A stretch of DNA of 64,000 nucleotides from Albibacterium bauzanense. GTDB taxonomy: Bacteria > Bacteroidota > Bacteroidia > Sphingobacteriales > Sphingobacteriaceae. The DNA lies in NCBI RefSeq assembly GCF_004339765.1, contig NZ_SMGO01000001.1, positions 310,001 to 374,000 of the forward strand. Reading direction: 5' to 3'. Below, piece by piece: positions 21,334 through 29,680 of this stretch (position 1 is the first letter of the stretch; every line of letters begins with the position of its first letter). The translations under genes were made by a program, and so were the position numbers. The notes under the pieces are model-generated. The model did no database searches, was not told the DNA's origin, and saw only the letters and a program-made list of their open reading frames with translations.

Positions 21334-22185
21334 TTACACAATAATTTTTTCTATTGGCATAACCACAATTCCTTGTGCACCAGATGCTTTTAAAGCATTG
21401 ATTTTTTCCCAAAAATCTTGCTCAGAAATAACTGTATGTACTGCAACCCATCCTTCTTCTGCAAGAGGGATAATAGTTGGGCTTTTCACACCTGGTAAAA
21501 GGGTTAAAATAGAAGGTAGATTTTTGCGCTCTACGTTTAATACCACATATTTAGTTTCACTGGCACGTAAAACAGATTGAATTCTTTGTAATAATTCTTC
21601 AACGATCGAATCATGTTTGATATCTTTCTTACCGATCAAGACCGCTTGCGAAGATAATACATCTGCAAAAGGTTCTAAGCCGTTACTTTTTAAAGTCCCG
21701 CCGGTTGATACAATATCACAGATAGCATCACTCAAACCTAACCCGGGTGAAATTTCAACCGACCCTGAAATCGTACGAATACTAGCATCAATCTTATTCT
21801 CTGTCAAGAATTTCTGTAAAATTATCGGATTAGAAGTAGCAATTGATTTGCCATTCAACTCTTGTAACGATTCATAATTCTTTCCCTTTGGAATAGCAAT
21901 TTTTAAAGTGCATTTCCCAAATCCAAGTTTTTGAAGGTATTCAACATCTACCTCTTTTTCCTGAATTACGTTTTCTCCAACTATACCCAAATCGGCAATG
22001 CCATCTTGAACATATTCAGGAATATCGTCATCGCGCAAGAACAGAATTTCAAGCGGAAAATTATTAACAGAAGTGATAAGTGAACTTTTATAGTTCTCGA
22101 AGTTTAATCCGCAATTTTTAAGAAGTGCTACAGATTTTTCGTTTAGACGGCCAGATTTTTGTATGGCAATTTTTAATGCTTTCAA
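21334..22185 (-). CDS. hisG: ATP phosphoribosyltransferase, long form
   Basis: First committed enzyme of histidine synthesis, condensing ATP with PRPP. 283 residues: the long HisG form with a C-terminal ACT-like regulatory domain (about 205-283; IIPLAEEGWVAVHTVI), so it should be inhibited by histidine and need no HisZ. The start is TTG at 22185 (MKALKIAIQKSGRL). An in-frame stop lies just upstream and no ATG or GTG intervenes, so the rare start is forced. First structural gene of the operon, 55 bases after the leader peptide stop. Confidence 0.95.
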   Translation of the reverse strand: MKALKIAIQKSGRLNEKSVALLKNCGLNFENYKSSLITSVNNFPLEILFLRDDDIPEYVQDGIADLGIVGENVIQEKEVDVEYLQKLGFGKCTLKIAIPKGKNYESLQELNGKSIATSNPIILQKFLTENKIDASIRTISGSVEISPGLGLSDAICDIVSTGGTLKSNGLEPFADVLSSQAVLIGKKDIKHDSIVEELLQRIQSVLRASETKYVVLNVERKNLPSILTLLPGVKSPTIIPLAEEGWVAVHTVISEQDFWEKINALKASGAQGIVVMPIEKIIV

Positions 22186-22221
22186 AAGATATATTATTAA
22201 TAAAATTAAACATTGGGGTTA

Positions 22222-22309
22222 CGCTCCACGTAGAAACATACTATTTTATATCGCCACAATGGCGATGGAAATGTAAGTGATGTGTGAAGGTGTAATTCAT
22301 GTTGTGGAG
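22222..22309 (-). promoter_or_regulatory. Candidate attenuator RNA of the his operon
   Basis: The transcript has mutually exclusive pairings. (1) ATCGCCA/TGGCGAT, a perfect 7-bp hairpin with a 3-base loop at 22250-22266. (2) CCACAA (22302-22307) with TTGTGG (22254-22259). (3) CTCCAC (22304-22309) with GTGGAG (22224-22229). (4) CATTGTGG with CCCCAATG just before hisG, 7 of 8 paired. A ribosome on the His codons would disrupt some of these. No classical GC stem plus U-run is seen, so the output could be termination or translation. Confidence 0.5.
22241..22300 (-). CDS. hisL: Histidine operon leader peptide
   Basis: A 19-codon reading frame upstream of hisG, read on the minus strand: MNYTFTHHLHFHRHCGDIK, then TAG. 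Five of eight consecutive codons (residues 7-14) are His, as expected for a ribosome-stalling leader that senses charged tRNA-His. It lies about 28 bases downstream of the predicted start of a consensus promoter and ends 55 bases before hisG. A 7-bp hairpin (22250-22266) overlaps its last His codons. The reading frame and His run are directly visible; control by attenuation is inferred by analogy with enterobacterial hisL. Confidence 0.85.
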   Translation of the reverse strand: MNYTFTHHLHFHRHCGDIK

Positions 22310-22335
22310 ATAATTATTAATAGCACTATATATTG

Positions 22336-22366
22336 CAAATATAATTGCAATTTAGACAATACCAAA
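22336..22366 (-). promoter_or_regulatory. his operon promoter
   Basis: On the minus strand TTTG (22366-22363), a 19-base spacer and TATATTTG (22343-22336) match the Bacteroidota TTTG-N19-TAnnTTTG promoter exactly. Transcription should start near 22329, giving a leader of about 143 bases before hisG. Confidence 0.75.
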
Positions 22367-22595
22367 TAAAAATCTAAATAATAACTCGCTTTAGTTGAAA
22401 TATTCCAAAATCACGAGAATAATTCATTCATTTAATTCTACGACCAATTAAACAATGGTTGTTATCATCAAAGTCTTACAAAAAGAACATCGGAAACTCA
22501 AGCCAATATTTTATAGTAAAATACGATTTGTTTACTAATGTAAATAATGTAATTTGCTTACGATATATCTTAAAAAAAAACAGAATCGAATTAAT
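22367..22595. other. Intergenic region between his leader and GH31 gene
   Basis: Upstream region of the glycogen operon. A small palindrome AACAA-TGG-TTGTT (22451-22463) could be an operator. TACGATTTG (22522-22530) resembles a -7 box with one extra base. No gene and no consensus promoter for the plus strand were found. Confidence 0.35.
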
Positions 22596-25046
22596 ATGGT
22601 GGAAGAGTTTAGAGTGACTAAAAGTTTAAAAGAAAAAATAAGCGATCAATATGAAGAGGACATACATCATGTTAATAATCCTGTACTTGATCCTCCCAAA
22701 ATTGAAAAGAAGTATTTGGGTAGAATAACTCAGTATCTTCAGAAAGGTAATAGCTTTTATTTCCATGATAATAAAGCTACAGTAGAAATTAAAGTTGTAA
22801 GCGATGAGATCATCAGAGTTCGTTTGGCTCCTAACTCCAGTTTTCTTTCCGATTTTTCATACGCAGTTGATAATGTAAATCAACATGTAGACTTGTATGA
22901 ACTAGATGAAGATAATGAGAACTATCGGGTGAAAACCAACACGGTAACCTGTGTACTGAATAAAGAAAACTTTCATATTTCTTTTGAAAATAGAGATGGA
23001 AAAATAACCAATCAAGATCACGCTCCCATGCACTGGGAAGAAAACGATGACTTTGGAGGTTACTACGTTTATTGCACCAAACAAGCAAAGGAAAATGAAG
23101 GTTTCTTTGGATTAGGGGATAAGGCTAGCCATTTAAATTTAAAGGGCAGGCGCTTAACGAATTGGAATTCTGATACTTATTCATTTTCATTTAATCAAGA
23201 TCCTCTATATAAAAGCATTCCTTTCTATTTGAGTCTACACGAAGGAGAATCTTATGGAATTTTCTTTGATAATACATTTAAAACTTACTTTGACTTTGCT
23301 AGTGAAAAAACAGATCAAACTAGCTTTTGGTCAGAAGGAGGAGAGCTTCAATATTATTATATTCACGGACCCTCTATGACGGATGTAATAAAACGTTACC
23401 ATAATCTTACAGGCACCCATTATTTACCACCTACCTGGGCATTGGGCTATCACCAATGTCGGTGGAGCTATTACCCGGAAAGTAAAGTAAGAGACCTTGG
23501 ACTTCAATTCCGGAATCGCCAAATTCCTTGCGATGCGCTCTATCTCGATATTGATTATATGGAGGGATACCGGTGTTTTACATGGAATAAGCGTTATTTT
23601 CCTGATCCAAAAGGGATGATTCAGGATTTAGCTAAAGATGGTTTTAAAACTGTCGTAATGATTGATCCTGGAATAAAAGTAGATGATAATTACTGGGTAT
23701 TTCAGGAAGGTAAAAAAAACAACTACTTCTGTAGAAGAGGGGATGATTATTTTATGGAAGGATATGTATGGCCTGGTCGTTGTCAATTCCCTGATTTCAC
23801 CAACCCACAAGTCCGCGCCTGGTGGGGAGGTTTGTATGAAGGATTAGTTGAAAGTGGAGTAGCGGGTGTTTGGAATGATATGAATGAACCTGCTGTTTTT
23901 GGTGGCAGGGTATTTCCAAATGATGTTCGTCATAATTACGATGGTCACCATGGGTCTCATAGAAAAGCACATAACATCTATGGAATGCAAATGGTTAGAG
24001 CAACATACGATGGATTGAAAAAACTTCAACCCAACAAAAGGCCTTTTACCATTACCAGAGCCGCCTATGCAGGCACTCAACGCTATGCATCAGTATGGAC
24101 AGGTGATAATGTTGCAACCTGGGAGCATTTAAAAATGGGATCCTTGCAGTTACAGCGCTTATCGATGTCAGGCTTGCCTTTTTGTGGAACTGACATTGGT
24201 GGCTTTAGTGGCGAACCTACTGCAGAATTGTTTACAAGATGGATTCAATTTGGGGTCTTTTCTCCTTTTATGCGTGCACATTCTGCAGGCGATACAGCAG
24301 AAAGAGAACCTTGGAGCTTTGGTGAAGAATACGAGAAACTAAATAGAAAGTTTATTCAACTAAGATATAAACTGTTACCCTACATCTATACTGTTTTCAG
24401 GCAACATGCCCATGATGGCTCACCCATTCTAAATCCTCTAATTATGCTTGAGCAAGAGGAGGTAAGTAATCTGCAACGAGAAGAAGAATTTGCTTTTGGT
24501 GATAAAATACTTGTTTCCCCTGTTTTAGAAGCCGGTCAGCAACAGAAAACAATCTACCTTCCAAAAGGCAAGTGGTATGACTACTGGACACATGCTTTAA
24601 TACCTGGAGGTATGGAGCATCAATTTGACACTCCACTAGATAAAATGCCGATTTTTATTAAAGCAGGCACTGTATTGCCAGAGCATCCTGTCATGCAATA
24701 TGTAAATGAGAAAACAATTGAGATCCTTGATTTAAATGTATTCTATTCAGAATCACATGTTGAATCAAGTTTATACGAAGATGAAGGAGATTCATTTGCT
24801 TATGAACATCAGGGATACGTAAATAAGAAATTCATAGTTAAGGGTACTGCAAGTTCCTTAGAGATTACACAAGAGGTTGAAGGTTTATATACAGAGTCGT
24901 ACCATGAATACCGTGTTAATATTATTGGCTTACCTTTTGAATTAAAGACTGTACTTGTTGACAATGAAATAATCAACTTTAGTCAAAACGAACTTGGTAG
25001 TACAGTTGTTATAGGAAAAAGGTTTAAAAGCATGCTACTTAAATAA
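22596..25046 (+). CDS. Glycoside hydrolase family 31 (alpha-glucosidase)
   Basis: 816 residues from the ATG at 22596. A TTG at 22554 would add 14 residues that do not look like family sequence, so I prefer the ATG. An N-terminal beta-sandwich (about 60-270, FFGLGDKASHLN) precedes the catalytic barrel. The nucleophile is Asp428 in WNDMNEP and the acid/base Asp is in WTGDNVATWEHLK; the -1 subsite has LDIDYMEGY. No signal peptide, so cytoplasmic. The family removes alpha-linked glucose (or xylose, galactose) from non-reducing ends. Heading the glgB-glgA-glgC operon, it probably works on maltodextrin or glycogen-derived oligosaccharides. Confidence 0.9.
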   Translation: MVEEFRVTKSLKEKISDQYEEDIHHVNNPVLDPPKIEKKYLGRITQYLQKGNSFYFHDNKATVEIKVVSDEIIRVRLAPNSSFLSDFSYAVDNVNQHVDLYELDEDNENYRVKTNTVTCVLNKENFHISFENRDGKITNQDHAPMHWEENDDFGGYYVYCTKQAKENEGFFGLGDKASHLNLKGRRLTNWNSDTYSFSFNQDPLYKSIPFYLSLHEGESYGIFFDNTFKTYFDFASEKTDQTSFWSEGGELQYYYIHGPSMTDVIKRYHNLTGTHYLPPTWALGYHQCRWSYYPESKVRDLGLQFRNRQIPCDALYLDIDYMEGYRCFTWNKRYFPDPKGMIQDLAKDGFKTVVMIDPGIKVDDNYWVFQEGKKNNYFCRRGDDYFMEGYVWPGRCQFPDFTNPQVRAWWGGLYEGLVESGVAGVWNDMNEPAVFGGRVFPNDVRHNYDGHHGSHRKAHNIYGMQMVRATYDGLKKLQPNKRPFTITRAAYAGTQRYASVWTGDNVATWEHLKMGSLQLQRLSMSGLPFCGTDIGGFSGEPTAELFTRWIQFGVFSPFMRAHSAGDTAEREPWSFGEEYEKLNRKFIQLRYKLLPYIYTVFRQHAHDGSPILNPLIMLEQEEVSNLQREEEFAFGDKILVSPVLEAGQQQKTIYLPKGKWYDYWTHALIPGGMEHQFDTPLDKMPIFIKAGTVLPEHPVMQYVNEKTIEILDLNVFYSESHVESSLYEDEGDSFAYEHQGYVNKKFIVKGTASSLEITQEVEGLYTESYHEYRVNIIGLPFELKTVLVDNEIINFSQNELGSTVVIGKRFKSMLLK

Positions 25047-25063
25047 CCACCAAAAATCTAACT

Positions 25064-26983
25064 ATGCTAAATTCTGTACAAGCTTATTCTAAGTTTTCTG
25101 ATTTTGATATCAGTCTATTTCGCGCAGGCAAACACTATAAGCTTTACGAAAAATTTGGCGCTCATGAGCTGCAATTTAACCAGCAAATAGGAACTTATTT
25201 TGCTGTTTGGGCTCCCAATGCTGATGCCGTTTCAGTCATAGGAAATTTCAATGGTTGGAATCGTTTTTCCCATCCGTTATTGTTACGCTGGGACCAATCA
25301 GGCATTTGGGAAGGCTTTATTCCTCAAGTAAAGAATGGAGAAATCTATAAATATGCCATTAGTACAAAAACGGGTGAGGTACTTGAAAAAGGAGATCCAT
25401 TCGCTTTTCAATGGGAAGAACCACCTTTAACAGCGTCTGTAGTAAATACTACCTGGTATGAATGGAAAGATAATGATTGGATGACAATCCGTCATTTGAA
25501 AAATGCTTTGAATGTGCCACTAGCTGTTTATGAAATGCATTTAGGCTCGTGGATGCGAAATATATCTAATCCATCTAAGTTTCTGACCTATGAAGAAATA
25601 GCTGAAAAACTGATTCCTTATATCTTAGAGGCTGGCTTTACACATGTAGAGTTTATGCCTGTTATGGAGCATCCTTACAGTCCGTCATGGGGCTATCAAA
25701 TTACAGGCTTTTACGCTCCAACAGCTCGCTTTGGCTCACCACAAGGATTAATGTACTTAATAGAACAACTTCACTTGAATGATATTGGAGTAATTTTAGA
25801 TTGGGTGCCATCTCATTTTCCGGGAGACGCCCATGGTTTGCATAAGTTTGATGGAACCTTTTTATATGAACATGCAGATCCTAAACAGGGCTATCATCCC
25901 GATTGGAATTCATACATTTTCAATTATGGCAGAAATGAGGTAAGATCTTTCTTAATCAGCAATGCTATTTATTGGTTAGACAGATATCATGTTGATGGCT
26001 TAAGGGTAGATGCGGTCGCTTCTATGTTATACCTCGATTATTCTCGAAAAGAGGGAGAGTGGATACCCAATGAGCTGGGTGGCAGAGAAAATTTAGAGGC
26101 AGTATCGTTCCTTAAAGAATTTAATGAAACAGTATATAGCGAATTTCCAGATGTTCAAACCATCGCAGAAGAATCAACAGCTTGGACAGGCGTTAGCAGT
26201 CCGACTTTTCAAAATGGATTAGGTTTCGGAATGAAATGGATGATGGGATGGATGAATGACACACTTGATTATTTTAGTGGAGATTCTCTCTTTCGAAGAT
26301 ATGACCATGGAAAAATAACGTTCAGTACCGTTTATGCCTTTACTGAAAATTTCATGTTACCGCTCTCTCATGACGAGGTAGTACATGGAAAGAAATCGCT
26401 TGTATACAAAATGCCAGGCGATAATTGGCAACAATTCGCTAATCTTCGTGCACTTTATTTATATATGTACACGCATCCGGGAACAAAGCTATTATTTATG
26501 GGCTCTGAGTTTGCTCAAACTTCTGAATGGAACTTTAATCAGTCGCTCGATTGGCATTTGATGCAATATGAACCACATATTGGTATATTTAAATTTATCC
26601 AAAAACTAAATACCATTTATAAATCTGAACCGGCATTATATGAAGTATCTTTTCGACAAGAAGGTTTTGAATGGATAGAATATGGAGATGCTCAAAACTC
26701 TGTACTTGTTTACCTTCGAAAGGGCCATCATGTAGATGCAAACTTATTAGTAATCCTAAATTTAACACCAGTTACACACAATGATTACCGGGTTGGTTTA
26801 CCCGCATCCGGACAATGGGATGTTATTCTTAACTCAGACGATCTCGAGTTTTATGGCTCTGGAGTTGTCCAGGACTCTGTTTTAAGTGAACCAATCGCTT
26901 GGATGGGACATGCACACTCTGCCATTATAAAACTACCACCATTAGGAGGATTAGTTTTAAAGCGACAACCAAATCTAATTTAA
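25064..26983 (+). CDS. glgB: 1,4-alpha-glucan branching enzyme
   Basis: Transfers alpha-1,4 glucan segments to alpha-1,6 positions during glycogen synthesis. 639 residues, somewhat shorter than the E. coli enzyme, lacking its N1 domain. Layout: a CBM48 domain (about 35-130, VWAPNADAVSVIGNFNGW), then a GH13 barrel with VDGLRVDAVASM (nucleophile Asp), TIAEESTAW (acid Glu) and PLSHDEVVHGK (Asp), then a C-terminal beta domain. 17 bases after the GH31 gene and 7 before glgA, in the same operon. Confidence 0.95.
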   Translation: MLNSVQAYSKFSDFDISLFRAGKHYKLYEKFGAHELQFNQQIGTYFAVWAPNADAVSVIGNFNGWNRFSHPLLLRWDQSGIWEGFIPQVKNGEIYKYAISTKTGEVLEKGDPFAFQWEEPPLTASVVNTTWYEWKDNDWMTIRHLKNALNVPLAVYEMHLGSWMRNISNPSKFLTYEEIAEKLIPYILEAGFTHVEFMPVMEHPYSPSWGYQITGFYAPTARFGSPQGLMYLIEQLHLNDIGVILDWVPSHFPGDAHGLHKFDGTFLYEHADPKQGYHPDWNSYIFNYGRNEVRSFLISNAIYWLDRYHVDGLRVDAVASMLYLDYSRKEGEWIPNELGGRENLEAVSFLKEFNETVYSEFPDVQTIAEESTAWTGVSSPTFQNGLGFGMKWMMGWMNDTLDYFSGDSLFRRYDHGKITFSTVYAFTENFMLPLSHDEVVHGKKSLVYKMPGDNWQQFANLRALYLYMYTHPGTKLLFMGSEFAQTSEWNFNQSLDWHLMQYEPHIGIFKFIQKLNTIYKSEPALYEVSFRQEGFEWIEYGDAQNSVLVYLRKGHHVDANLLVILNLTPVTHNDYRVGLPASGQWDVILNSDDLEFYGSGVVQDSVLSEPIAWMGHAHSAIIKLPPLGGLVLKRQPNLI

Positions 26984-26990
26984 TACAGCT

Positions 26991-28409
26991 ATGAAGGTAT
27001 TTCATATCAGCGCAGAATGCTATCCTGTTGCAAAAACTGGTGGCTTGGGCGATGTAGTAGGAGCATTGCCAAAATATCAAAACCTATTGGGTATCCAGGC
27101 AGCTGTTATTATGCCTTGGTATGACAAGCCATTTGTAAGAGACCATAAGTTCGAGAAAGTATACGAGTCAGAATTTAAGCAAGGTTCACAATTTTACTCA
27201 TTCGCAATTTTAAAAGAAACCACAAATATTTTGGGTTTTGAAATCTATTTGGTCAAAATTCCCGGACTATTAGATCGTACTGAAATATATAGTTATCCGG
27301 ATGAAAGTAATCAATTCATAGCCTTCCAGCACGCATTGCTGAAATGGATAAGTGATCAAAATATTGCACCCGATTTATTTCATTGTCACGATCATCATAG
27401 TGGCCTTGTTCCTTTTTTTATTGAAAATGCAGAAGAATTTAAATCATTAAAAGGCATCCCGACCCTTGCTACCATCCATAATGCTCAATACCAGGGATGG
27501 ATGGGCTGGCAACAAGCTATTTTAATGCCCTCCTTTGATTCCAATAAATGGGGTTTATTAGACTGGGATAAAAATATTAATCCATTAGCTTCTCTCATTA
27601 AATGCTGTTGGGCTTATAATGCAGTTTCGACGGGTTATTTAAAAGAACTTTTTAAAGAAGCAAACGGTCTTGAAAGTCTTTTCTTTTCTGAAAAAGAGAA
27701 AGGCTATGGAATTATCAACGGTATCGATGAAGAGATATGGAATCCTGAAACAGATCCATTCCTTCATAAAAACTACAGTGTTAGAACAGTAATAACGGGT
27801 AAAAAAAGCAATAAAAAGGCCTTATGTGAAAGCTATGGTTTAGATCTGGAATTACCATTATTGGCATTTATCGGGCGCTTTGCACTCGAAAAAGGAGCAG
27901 ATTTATTACCAGGCTTTGTTCAGGAATTAGCGCAAAAATTTACCGGAAAAATAAACTTTATCGTCTTAGGATCTGGAGATATACATATACAGGAAGCCTT
28001 AACCCACCTACGTGAGAAAGGAAATACAGCAGTAATTATTGGATATAATGAAAAACTTTCGCATCAAATTTATGCATCTGCTGATTATTTAATTATGCCT
28101 TCCAGAGTAGAACCCTGTGGCCTAAATCAATTATATGCCATGCGTTATGGCACCATTCCTATTGTTCGGAGCATTGGAGGTTTAAAGGATACAGTAACCG
28201 ATTTATCGAAGAATAAGGCCAACGGAATTGTTTTTGAAGAAGTTTCCTTACGTAATATGGTTCAAGCAATAAAACGCGGATTAAAACTGTATGAAGAGTC
28301 AAAAGTATTTAATAAATTACAAAGAGAAAACATGAAGCTGGATTATTCATGGAAAAGCTCTACAATGAAATATATACAGTTATATGAAAACTTAATTAAT
28401 CGCTTATGA
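26991..28409 (+). CDS. glgA: Glycogen synthase (ADP-glucose)
   Basis: GT5 retaining glycosyltransferase, 472 residues, that elongates alpha-1,4 glucan from ADP-glucose. The N-terminal KTGGLGDVVGALP carries the nucleotide-sugar lysine (Lys15). The C-terminal half has the GT-B motifs FIGRFALEKGADLLPG and PSRVEPCGLNQLYAMRYGT (with the catalytic Glu) and SIGGLKDTV. The stop codon overlaps the glgC start (ATGA), so the two are coupled. Confidence 0.95.
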   Translation: MKVFHISAECYPVAKTGGLGDVVGALPKYQNLLGIQAAVIMPWYDKPFVRDHKFEKVYESEFKQGSQFYSFAILKETTNILGFEIYLVKIPGLLDRTEIYSYPDESNQFIAFQHALLKWISDQNIAPDLFHCHDHHSGLVPFFIENAEEFKSLKGIPTLATIHNAQYQGWMGWQQAILMPSFDSNKWGLLDWDKNINPLASLIKCCWAYNAVSTGYLKELFKEANGLESLFFSEKEKGYGIINGIDEEIWNPETDPFLHKNYSVRTVITGKKSNKKALCESYGLDLELPLLAFIGRFALEKGADLLPGFVQELAQKFTGKINFIVLGSGDIHIQEALTHLREKGNTAVIIGYNEKLSHQIYASADYLIMPSRVEPCGLNQLYAMRYGTIPIVRSIGGLKDTVTDLSKNKANGIVFEEVSLRNMVQAIKRGLKLYEESKVFNKLQRENMKLDYSWKSSTMKYIQLYENLINRL

Positions 28410-29680
28410 AACCCAATGTGATTTCCATTGTTTTAGGGGGAGGAAGAGGAACTCGTTTAAATCCTTTAACGTTAACGCGTTCAAAGCCGGCTGTGCCCAT
28501 AGCCGGAAAATACCGATTGGTTGATATACCTATTTCTAACTGTTTAAATGCAGGTTACAACCGTATTTTTGTTCTTACACAGTATAATTCAGCTTCCTTA
28601 AATTCACATATTAAAAACACCTATAATTTCAGTGTTTTTGAGAAGGGTTTTGTTGATATTCTTGCTGCTGAGCAAACAAACGATGGGGATAAATGGTATG
28701 AAGGAACAGCCGATGCTGTTCGACGAATAAACAGGTATCTTGAAGCGCATGAATATGAATACATTCTTATTCTTTCAGGAGATCAACTCTATCAAATGGA
28801 TTTCCAAAAGTTGATTGATTTTCACATCGAAAAGAATGCAAAAATTACCTTAGCAACTATTCCGGTAAATGCGAAAGATGCTACCTCATTTGGAATTCTA
28901 AAATCGGATGAAAACGACCGGATAACTTCCTTTATAGAGAAACCAAAAACTGAGTTGTTGGTCGACTGGAGCTCTGAAGTAAGCGATTCAATGAAAGGGC
29001 AGGGCAGAGAGTATCTGGCTTCCATGGGAATTTATGTATTCAATAAACATGAGTTATTAAATTTATTGGAAACAACCGATGGACTTGACTTTGGCAAAGA
29101 ATTAATACCTCATGCAATCGAACATTCAGACGTATATAGCTTTCAATATGATGGATACTGGACAGATATCGGGAATATTGATTCTTTCTTTGAAGCAAAT
29201 ATTGGTTTAACAGACGATATTCCTCTATTTAACTTATTTGATTCAAACACAATATATTCACGCTCAAGAATGCTTCCACCTTCAAAATATGCAGGTTGTT
29301 TACTTGATCGTGTAATCGTAGCAGGAGGATGCATTATTAATGCAGATAAAATAGAACGGTCAGTAATAGGCGTACGTTCCAGAATCGGAAAGGGAACAGT
29401 AATACGAAATACTTACATGATGGGTTCAGATCATTATCAAAACCTGGACGATATAGTGGCAGCTCAAAAGGCAAATAGGCCACTTGTTGGTGTAGGCGAA
29501 CGTTGCTATATTGATAATTGCATTATCGATAAAAGTGCTTGTATTGGAAACGATGTTCGAATTACTGGCGGAGAACACATAGAAGATGGTGATTTTGAAA
29601 CACATACCGTAAAAGATGGTATTGTTGTTATTAAGAAAAAAGCTATTCTTCCAAACAATACAGTTATTGGATCTAAGTAA
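28406..29680 (+). CDS. glgC: Glucose-1-phosphate adenylyltransferase
   Basis: Makes ADP-glucose, the glycosyl donor for GlgA and usually the regulated step. 424 residues. The nucleotidyltransferase domain starts ISIVLGGGRGTRLNPLTLTR, with the sugar-phosphate lysine in FIEKPK and LASMGIYVF. The C-terminal left-handed beta-helix (about 300-424) has hexapeptide-like repeats such as CIIDKSACIGNDVRI. Last gene of the operon, followed by a strong terminator. Confidence 0.95.
   Translation: MKPNVISIVLGGGRGTRLNPLTLTRSKPAVPIAGKYRLVDIPISNCLNAGYNRIFVLTQYNSASLNSHIKNTYNFSVFEKGFVDILAAEQTNDGDKWYEGTADAVRRINRYLEAHEYEYILILSGDQLYQMDFQKLIDFHIEKNAKITLATIPVNAKDATSFGILKSDENDRITSFIEKPKTELLVDWSSEVSDSMKGQGREYLASMGIYVFNKHELLNLLETTDGLDFGKELIPHAIEHSDVYSFQYDGYWTDIGNIDSFFEANIGLTDDIPLFNLFDSNTIYSRSRMLPPSKYAGCLLDRVIVAGGCIINADKIERSVIGVRSRIGKGTVIRNTYMMGSDHYQNLDDIVAAQKANRPLVGVGERCYIDNCIIDKSACIGNDVRITGGEHIEDGDFETHTVKDGIVVIKKKAILPNNTVIGSK

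Follow-up and report, generated by a model that had tools for sequence, protein, structure and literature searches.

The hisG gene of Albibacterium bauzanense is preceded by a genuine histidine-sensing leader, which is more than a chance feature of the DNA. We regard it as rather probable that this leader is part of a leader-peptide attenuator which reads histidine supply and most likely controls the initiation of hisG translation. Comparison of related loci establishes, in the Sphingobacteriaceae, the leader itself, the predicted helices P1, P1b, P2 and P3, of which P1b and P3 are mutually exclusive, the lack of a terminator and a GTG or TTG start codon for hisG. The best reading of this evidence is that the his attenuator of the Sphingobacteriaceae is translational and derived from a transcriptional one, the classical terminator-type His leaders of other Bacteroidia being probably the ancestral form. 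There is about an even chance that on the Sphingobacteriaceae branch the output of the his system, and not that of pheA, moved from termination to translation initiation, with the terminator lost, a helix between the leader start and hisG taking over, and the hisG start codon changing to GUG or UUG.

Layout of the his leader region

The features of the leader region, all on the minus strand, are given in Table 1. Positions are those of the window, the whole 64-kb stretch of DNA that was analysed. The gene cluster begins with hisG, whose reading frame extends back to a stop codon without any ATG, as judged by eye, and continues with frames which read, from their translations, as hisD, hisC, hisB, hisH and hisA. 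A divergent cluster of glycogen type occupies the plus strand at 22554-29680, its translations reading as a glucosidase, a branching enzyme, a glycogen synthase and an ADP-glucose pyrophosphorylase, and the intergenic region is common to this cluster and the his promoter.

The promoter has a pattern which we take to be of the Bacteroidota type. It lies where the initial annotation had placed it, and all 135 Sphingobacteriaceae loci examined have the element TANNTTTG in the 75 nt that precede the leader ATG, compared with 6% of single-base shuffles. The same annotation had described a 19-codon frame encoding HHLHFHRH, a first hairpin over its last His codons and a TTG-started hisG, each of which is found at the positions in Table 1 and, as set out below, has its counterparts in the family.

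Table 1. Observed and predicted features of the A. bauzanense his leader region.
Feature	Position	Strand	Details	Basis
Promoter TTTG-N19-TATATTTG, -33/-7 elements	22336..22366	(-)	TTTG 22366-22363, 19-nt spacer, TATATTTG 22343-22336	Sequence
P1 5' strand, UAUUAAUAA, in the 5'UTR	22314..22322	(-)	Partner 22203-22195	Minimum-energy fold; family-wide swap tests; A. bauzanense signal weak
P1 5' strand, block two, AACAU, which takes in the A and U of the leader start codon	22299..22303	(-)	Partner 22213-22209	Minimum-energy fold
his leader peptide gene, MNYTFTHHLHFHRHCGDIK*, 19 codons, HHLHFHRH	22241..22300	(-)	ATG 22300, TAG 22241	Sequence and family survey
Strand a in the early leader (UUAC, CUUCAC), forming P1b with c	22284..22295	(-)	22291-22284 with 22229-22221	Swap test; minimum-energy fold
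P2 hairpin AUCGCCA-UUG-UGGCGAU over the last His codons	22250..22266	(-)		Pair forms across 135 family loci
Strand b, GUUUC, 5' half of the P3 hairpin	22233..22237	(-)	Begins 4 nt past the leader stop	
Strand c, GUGGAGCGUAA	22219..22229	(-)	Partner b (P3: 22237-22233 with 22227-22223) or a (P1b)	Swap tests
P1 3' strand, AUGUU (22213-22209) and UUAUUAAUA (22203-22195)	22195..22213	(-)	End 9 nt before the hisG start	
hisG, ATP phosphoribosyltransferase, first gene of the cluster	21334..22185	(-)	TTG start at 22185	PF01634 match, E 3.5e-50

The leader peptide and its distribution

Of the 1669 short frames counted on the two strands of the window (8-45 codons), the his leader alone has at least five His in eight codons. 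For the comparison 267 loci were read, 1, 29, 80, 28, 29 and 100 across successive genome sets; hisG was present in 40 of 60, 174 of 396 and 247 of 250 genomes in the sets sampled and confirmed in 80 of 132 in another. The amino end of HisG was recognisable in 261 of the loci, the other six being dropped, and these comprise 147 from the Sphingobacteriaceae and 114 from outside the family, as raw counts uncorrected for kinship which include a few duplicates (for example L021/L031 and L023/L052).

A His-rich leader, with at least three His in eight codons, precedes hisG in 145 of the 147 Sphingobacteriaceae loci and 106 of the 114 other Bacteroidia loci, and frames of this quality arise in 7.5% and 4.4%, respectively, of the shuffled upstream regions. 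A frame with at least four His is present at 144 of the 147 family loci as against 0.4-0.7% of shuffled regions. The two family loci without a leader, L081 and L083, are contigs which end 20 nt before hisG. This distribution, obtained by the inspection of relatives that the initial annotation had proposed, indicates that histidine sensing is general in the class Bacteroidia. It also bears on the suggestion that the His-rich frame is a chance feature absent from related genomes. The folding energy of the single A. bauzanense sequence is indeed unremarkable (z -1.49, with 15 of 200 shuffles as good), as that suggestion would have it, but the occurrence of the leader at so many loci, against 4-7% of shuffles at three His and fewer than 1% at four, refutes it and leaves its probability negligible. 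A search of RNA family models, also proposed at the outset, gave no Rfam match in the whole 64-kb window at the gathering score and none in 22100-22580 at E values up to 5.

Terminators and hisG start codons

No GC-rich terminator hairpin with a U-run precedes hisG in A. bauzanense. The initial annotation had remarked on this, and two scans extend it to the family. The first was strict, overlooking at least one terminator evident by eye (L024), and was passed by 92 of 114 loci outside the family versus 2 of 147 in the Sphingobacteriaceae, both of which proved to be the P2 hairpin at the His codons followed by A/T-rich sequence. The second, which ran from the leader stop codon onward and called for a stem of at least three GC pairs before the U's, returned none of 135 loci in the family and 89 of 106 outside.

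The start codon of hisG differs along the same line: outside the family 111 of 114 loci have ATG, and within it 136 of 147 have GTG or TTG. Where hisG lies no more than 95 nt from the leader stop, its start is GTG or TTG in 133 of 135 family loci; where it is displaced further, ATG is found in nine of ten, these nine falling in four genus groups and being uncorrected for kinship. The displaced loci with an ATG start include the Parapedobacter-type L023, L025, L041, L052 and L069, together with L256. By eye, a short TTG-started frame sits at the usual place of the hisG start in these loci, and L025 has a further short frame whose stop codon overlaps the hisG ATG, as if translation were relayed. 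Two loci of genus g5, L019 and L250, have long leaders with about ten His, an ATG-started hisG and a layout of P1 and P3 that is unclear by eye, L019 carrying in addition a weak terminator-like stretch; they possibly represent an intermediate or a secondary change.

A tree was made of 81 HisG proteins, 45 drawn by thinning from the 147 rows of the family and 36 from elsewhere; in it the family lies beyond a long branch with full support. The pheA gene served as a control. Of 24 Sphingobacteriaceae pheA loci 23 were readable, and among them a terminator with a U-run was found in 22, an ATG start in all 23 and a Phe-rich frame above threshold in 17. A. bauzanense is itself an example, its pheA locus (L283, near 98181 of contig C3) having a Phe/Tyr-rich leader (...AYWYFGFFYFSSNSRD), a terminator, a run of eight U's and an ATG. 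The presence of terminators and ATG starts at pheA in genomes of the family indicates that the change at his is not general to their attenuators.

Conserved helices and their mutual exclusion

Helices were assessed chiefly by a swap test, in which the duplex energy of a locus's own strands is compared with that of strands exchanged between representatives. Statistics for P1 and P3 are drawn from 135 of the 145 leader-bearing family loci, the ten with hisG more than 95 nt past the leader stop being left out, and the swap tests from representatives less than 80% similar, 54 for P1 and 49 in which P3 was found (it was not found in 6 of the 135). A MAFFT alignment was made of 45 of the 49 (without L015, L017, L253 and L255); P3 of Pedobacter is out of register in it, and for this reason no pair counts were taken from the alignment.

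P2 takes the form CGC/GCG in 66 of the 135 loci, CAC/GTG in 60, a GU form in three and other forms in six, and overlaps a His codon in 132. The interchange of CGC/GCG and CAC/GTG is a clear compensatory change, of the kind which the initial annotation had thought should be looked for in the stems; P1, P1b and P3 also pass their swap tests. P3 is recognised in 129 of the 135 loci, as GUUUC with GAAAU, GAAAC, GAAGC or GGAGC, or as GCUUC/GGAGC, GUUUUG/CAAAAC or GUUUU/GAAAU, and favours its own strands in 38 of 49 representatives (z -6.0). Its loop, UACGU or UACGC (22237-22223 and relatives), is conserved beyond any apparent need of pairing. P1b, which joins the early leader to the 3' half of P3, gives the same z of -6.0, with the own strands favoured in 39 of 49, and the control pairing of the early leader with the 5' half of P3 gives -2.3. 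Strand c thus covaries with two mutually exclusive partners, a and b, which is the mark of a switch.

For P1, a first set of 38 representatives gave an energy of -12.71 with own strands and -8.98 with exchanged ones (z -8.4). Among all 54, the 5'UTR and AUG paired with their own pre-hisG segment at -13.49 versus -9.10 kcal/mol on exchange (sd 0.40, z -11.1), and the own pair surpassed the additive expectation from both partners in 53. Exchange with the nearest neighbour only left the own pair better in 35 and worse in 19 (p 0.0007). A strict version confined to the 5'UTR gave z -6.7, the own pair being favoured in 42 of 49, and the negative control against the hisG coding sequence z +1.1; for the Mucilaginibacter-like leaders alone the strict signal was not significant (z -0.8, n=17), the other representatives giving z -5.8. 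Outside the family, at terminator-bearing loci, there was a small excess in favour of own pairs (z -2.9). Of 54 representatives, 48 have a helix that runs on into the AUG of the leader, and P1 pairing persists in the displaced loci L010, L023 and L025 even though hisG is not adjacent to it.

The A. bauzanense copy of P1 is weak. Its value in the set of 38 was -7.6 kcal/mol, and exchange of the 3' partner gave a better one in 10 cases, exchange of the 5' partner in 13; the enlarged test gave -6.1 versus a mean of -7.2 for exchanged partners, and the strict 5'UTR test favoured the own pairing by 1.4 kcal/mol.

These results uphold the mutually exclusive pairings that the initial annotation had seen in the single sequence, in that swap tests favour b:c and a:c alike, but the helices it listed are, apart from the first hairpin, not the conserved ones. 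A 5' CTCCAC:GTGGAG pairing among them is absent from L014, a relative of the same genus. Two further candidates were dropped after inspection of relatives by eye: a pairing of CCCCAATG with CATTGTGG, for which no consistent counterpart appears, and a reading of P3 as a second conserved reading frame (ATGTTTCTACGT...), since it is the pairing and not the frame which relatives keep.

Modelled effect of ribosome position

The influence of a translating ribosome was modelled in 49 representatives: counted from the first base of the codon in the P site, 14 nt on the upstream side and 17 nt on the downstream side were masked, and the pairing was then recomputed. For a transcript that ends just beyond P3, P3 pairing averaged 0.23 in the absence of a ribosome, 0.84, 0.80, 0.70 and 0.54 when the A site was occupied by the first, second, third and last His codon, and 0.10 when the stop codon stood there. 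Values above 0.5 were reached by 43 of 49 representatives at the first His codon and by 4 of 49 at the stop. For the full-length transcript, an index of P1 pairing, taken as the expected number of pairs over 20, was 0.86 without a ribosome, 0.47, 0.65 and 0.76 at the first, second and third His codons and 0.83 at the stop, and P1b was 0.40 without a ribosome, 0.01, 0.02 and 0.08 at these codons and 0.39 at the stop. In the model, therefore, P3 and P1 depend on where the ribosome stands. This behaviour is partly built into the mask, which lies over the early leader when the ribosome is stalled and over b when it is terminating; such coverage would at the same time be a physical argument for the switch. 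For A. bauzanense itself the picture is mixed, with modelled P3 at 0.21, 0.62, 0.72, 0.04 and 0.14 for stalls from the first to the fifth His and at 0.00 for the stop; this copy is accordingly predicted to switch only for stalls at the second and third.

P1 ends a median of 12 nt ahead of the hisG start codon, leaving the codon itself uncovered. Masking the 5' strand of P1 lowered the cost of opening positions -18 to +12 of hisG from 4.78 to 3.29 kcal/mol, the cost being lower in 33 of 54 representatives. The masks for stalling at His codons produced no significant change in this cost at equilibrium (p 0.09-0.80), and the proposal that His stalling directly lowers it is in that respect unsupported.

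Proposed mechanism and alternatives

A scheme may be drawn from these features. When charged tRNA-His is plentiful, the ribosome would reach the leader stop codon and cover b, which would lie beneath it because b begins so close to that codon. With b covered, c would pair with a as P1b, running on into the long AU-rich helix P1, which would tie the stretch immediately ahead of hisG to the 5'UTR and the start codon of the leader. P1 would then hinder both the initiation of hisG and further translation of the leader, giving the OFF state. When histidine is short, the ribosome would stall at the His codons and cover a; c would instead pair with b in P3, blocking P1b and weakening P1, and hisG would be translated (ON). 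From the lack of U's after P1, the position of P1 against the hisG initiation region and the weak start codon beside it, we infer that the output is translation initiation and not transcription, and the sign of the response is arrived at likewise.

The initial annotation had also supposed that the output differs from the classical one and is perhaps translational, and in this it agrees with what is still the best reading. It had given occlusion of the hisG start as one example, whereas the partner of the pre-hisG strand in P1 is the 5'UTR with the leader start codon. The CCCCAATG stretch supplies the AUGUU which pairs with AACAU at the leader start codon (Table 1), and in the fold with this pairing it does not lie over the hisG start.

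A transcriptional attenuator with a non-canonical terminator, in which transcription would stop at P1 or P3 despite the lack of a GC-rich stem, is an unlikely alternative on the following grounds. P1 was rejected as a terminator for want of a U-run after it (a mean of 2.8 T in 8 nt, and at least six in only 1 of 54). A hairpin with at least two GC pairs before U's does occur at 27 of the 135 family loci versus 3.3 in shuffles, which would suit this alternative, as would the transcriptional appearance of the His leaders in other Bacteroidia, with their terminators at 92 of 114 loci. Twenty-six of the 27 are P3 as defined, 22 of them of the CAAAAC type, and a P3-like hairpin followed by U's looks like a weak terminator; P3 is predicted to form on stalling at the His codons, however, and the sign would then be wrong in the favoured model. 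Furthermore, the same genomes have canonical terminators at pheA (22/23), and the GTG and TTG starts of hisG would be left unexplained.

It is quite improbable that leader translation governs Rho-dependent termination between the leader and hisG, with P1 hiding or exposing a C/U-rich segment. Untranslated mRNA is open to Rho, and by eye the segment from P3 to hisG is C/U-rich in many relatives. Stalling would nevertheless free the segment from P1 and so bring about termination in starvation, the wrong sign unless hisG were then translated, and P1, P1b and P3 would not be required together. More improbable again is translational coupling or reinitiation, whereby ribosomes finishing the leader would proceed to hisG and the RNA folds would merely tune the process. 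In 135 of 145 loci a gap of 26-88 nt separates the leader stop from the hisG start, and the available text of PMC4833913 proposes reinitiation at leader peptides; the Bacteroidetes peak given there, at 11-14 nt, is however shorter than every spacing in these loci, a biosynthetic operon would call for the opposite sign, and the His codons would have no explanation.

Relation to known systems

As a kind, the leader-peptide attenuator is known. The variant proposed here for the Sphingobacteriaceae, in which a helix to the leader start codon replaces the terminator and hisG has a non-AUG start, is not described in the literature searched. Enterobacterial hisL is a transcription attenuator, and the likeness to it which the initial annotation had drawn holds for the run of His codons in a short leader, the mutually exclusive pairings among which a stalled ribosome would choose and the operon with hisG first. 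The Sphingobacteriaceae leader differs from hisL in lacking a terminator and U-run, in its putative repressing long-range helix to the leader start codon, in the GTG or TTG start of hisG and in having no Rfam match. The missing terminator is a feature of hisG in this family, terminators being usual elsewhere in the Bacteroidia: the other His leaders of the class share the gene and the sensor, and differ by the GC-rich terminator with U-run and the ATG-started hisG counted above.

The ermC leader is a translational attenuator in which a stalled ribosome frees a downstream initiation region and no terminator is needed. The proposed Sphingobacteriaceae switch would resemble it in just this respect, whilst the signal here would be charged tRNA-His rather than an antibiotic, and the leader start codon together with sequence upstream of it would form the sequestering strand. 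When sequestration of the ermC kind was tested for, P1 was found within 20 nt of hisG in 44 of 54 representatives, and masking its 5' strand changed the opening cost only by the fall already given (4.78 to 3.29 kcal/mol). Shine-Dalgarno pairing is hardly used for translation initiation in the Bacteroidota.

The LEU element of Actinobacteria, as presented in the available text of PMC1262725, is predicted to pair with the Shine-Dalgarno box of leuA, and leader peptides without obvious terminators are predicted there also. It resembles the present case in having codons for the end product in a leader peptide and in the position of its base stem, at the initiation site of the downstream gene; it differs in its pseudoknot, and the authors, in that text, deem leader translation an unlikely mechanism. 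The Bacteroid-trp motif (RF01692), in the available part of PMC2864571, is likewise a proposed cis-regulatory RNA of Bacteroidetes, but at Rfam thresholds the window yields no match to it, and the A. bauzanense leader contains no tryptophan codon. The accessible portion of PMC9723704 notes that in Flavobacterium psychrophilum and other Flavobacteriaceae operons for amino acids are preceded by leader-peptide attenuation, as well as noting a structured element 5' of hisG without an Rfam match in F. psychrophilum and its relatives. In the available text of PMC8305728, a survey of his genes in Bacteroidota, the word 'leader' does not occur and attenuation is named once, for enterobacteria. Across the open-access literature, to which most subscription journals do not belong, no paper was found on a his leader of the Sphingobacteriaceae or on a translational his attenuator.

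Significance

The his leader is a textbook attenuator, and a clade which keeps the sensor whilst seemingly swapping the output would amount to a natural experiment on how the output of an RNA switch changes. The classical form persists both in the sister families and, in these genomes, at pheA, and the proposal is testable in the culturable genera Pedobacter, Mucilaginibacter and Sphingobacterium. If the change of output is true, the Sphingobacteriaceae would possess a his leader peptide that acts on translation, with the old form kept both in the sister families and, within the same cell, at pheA.
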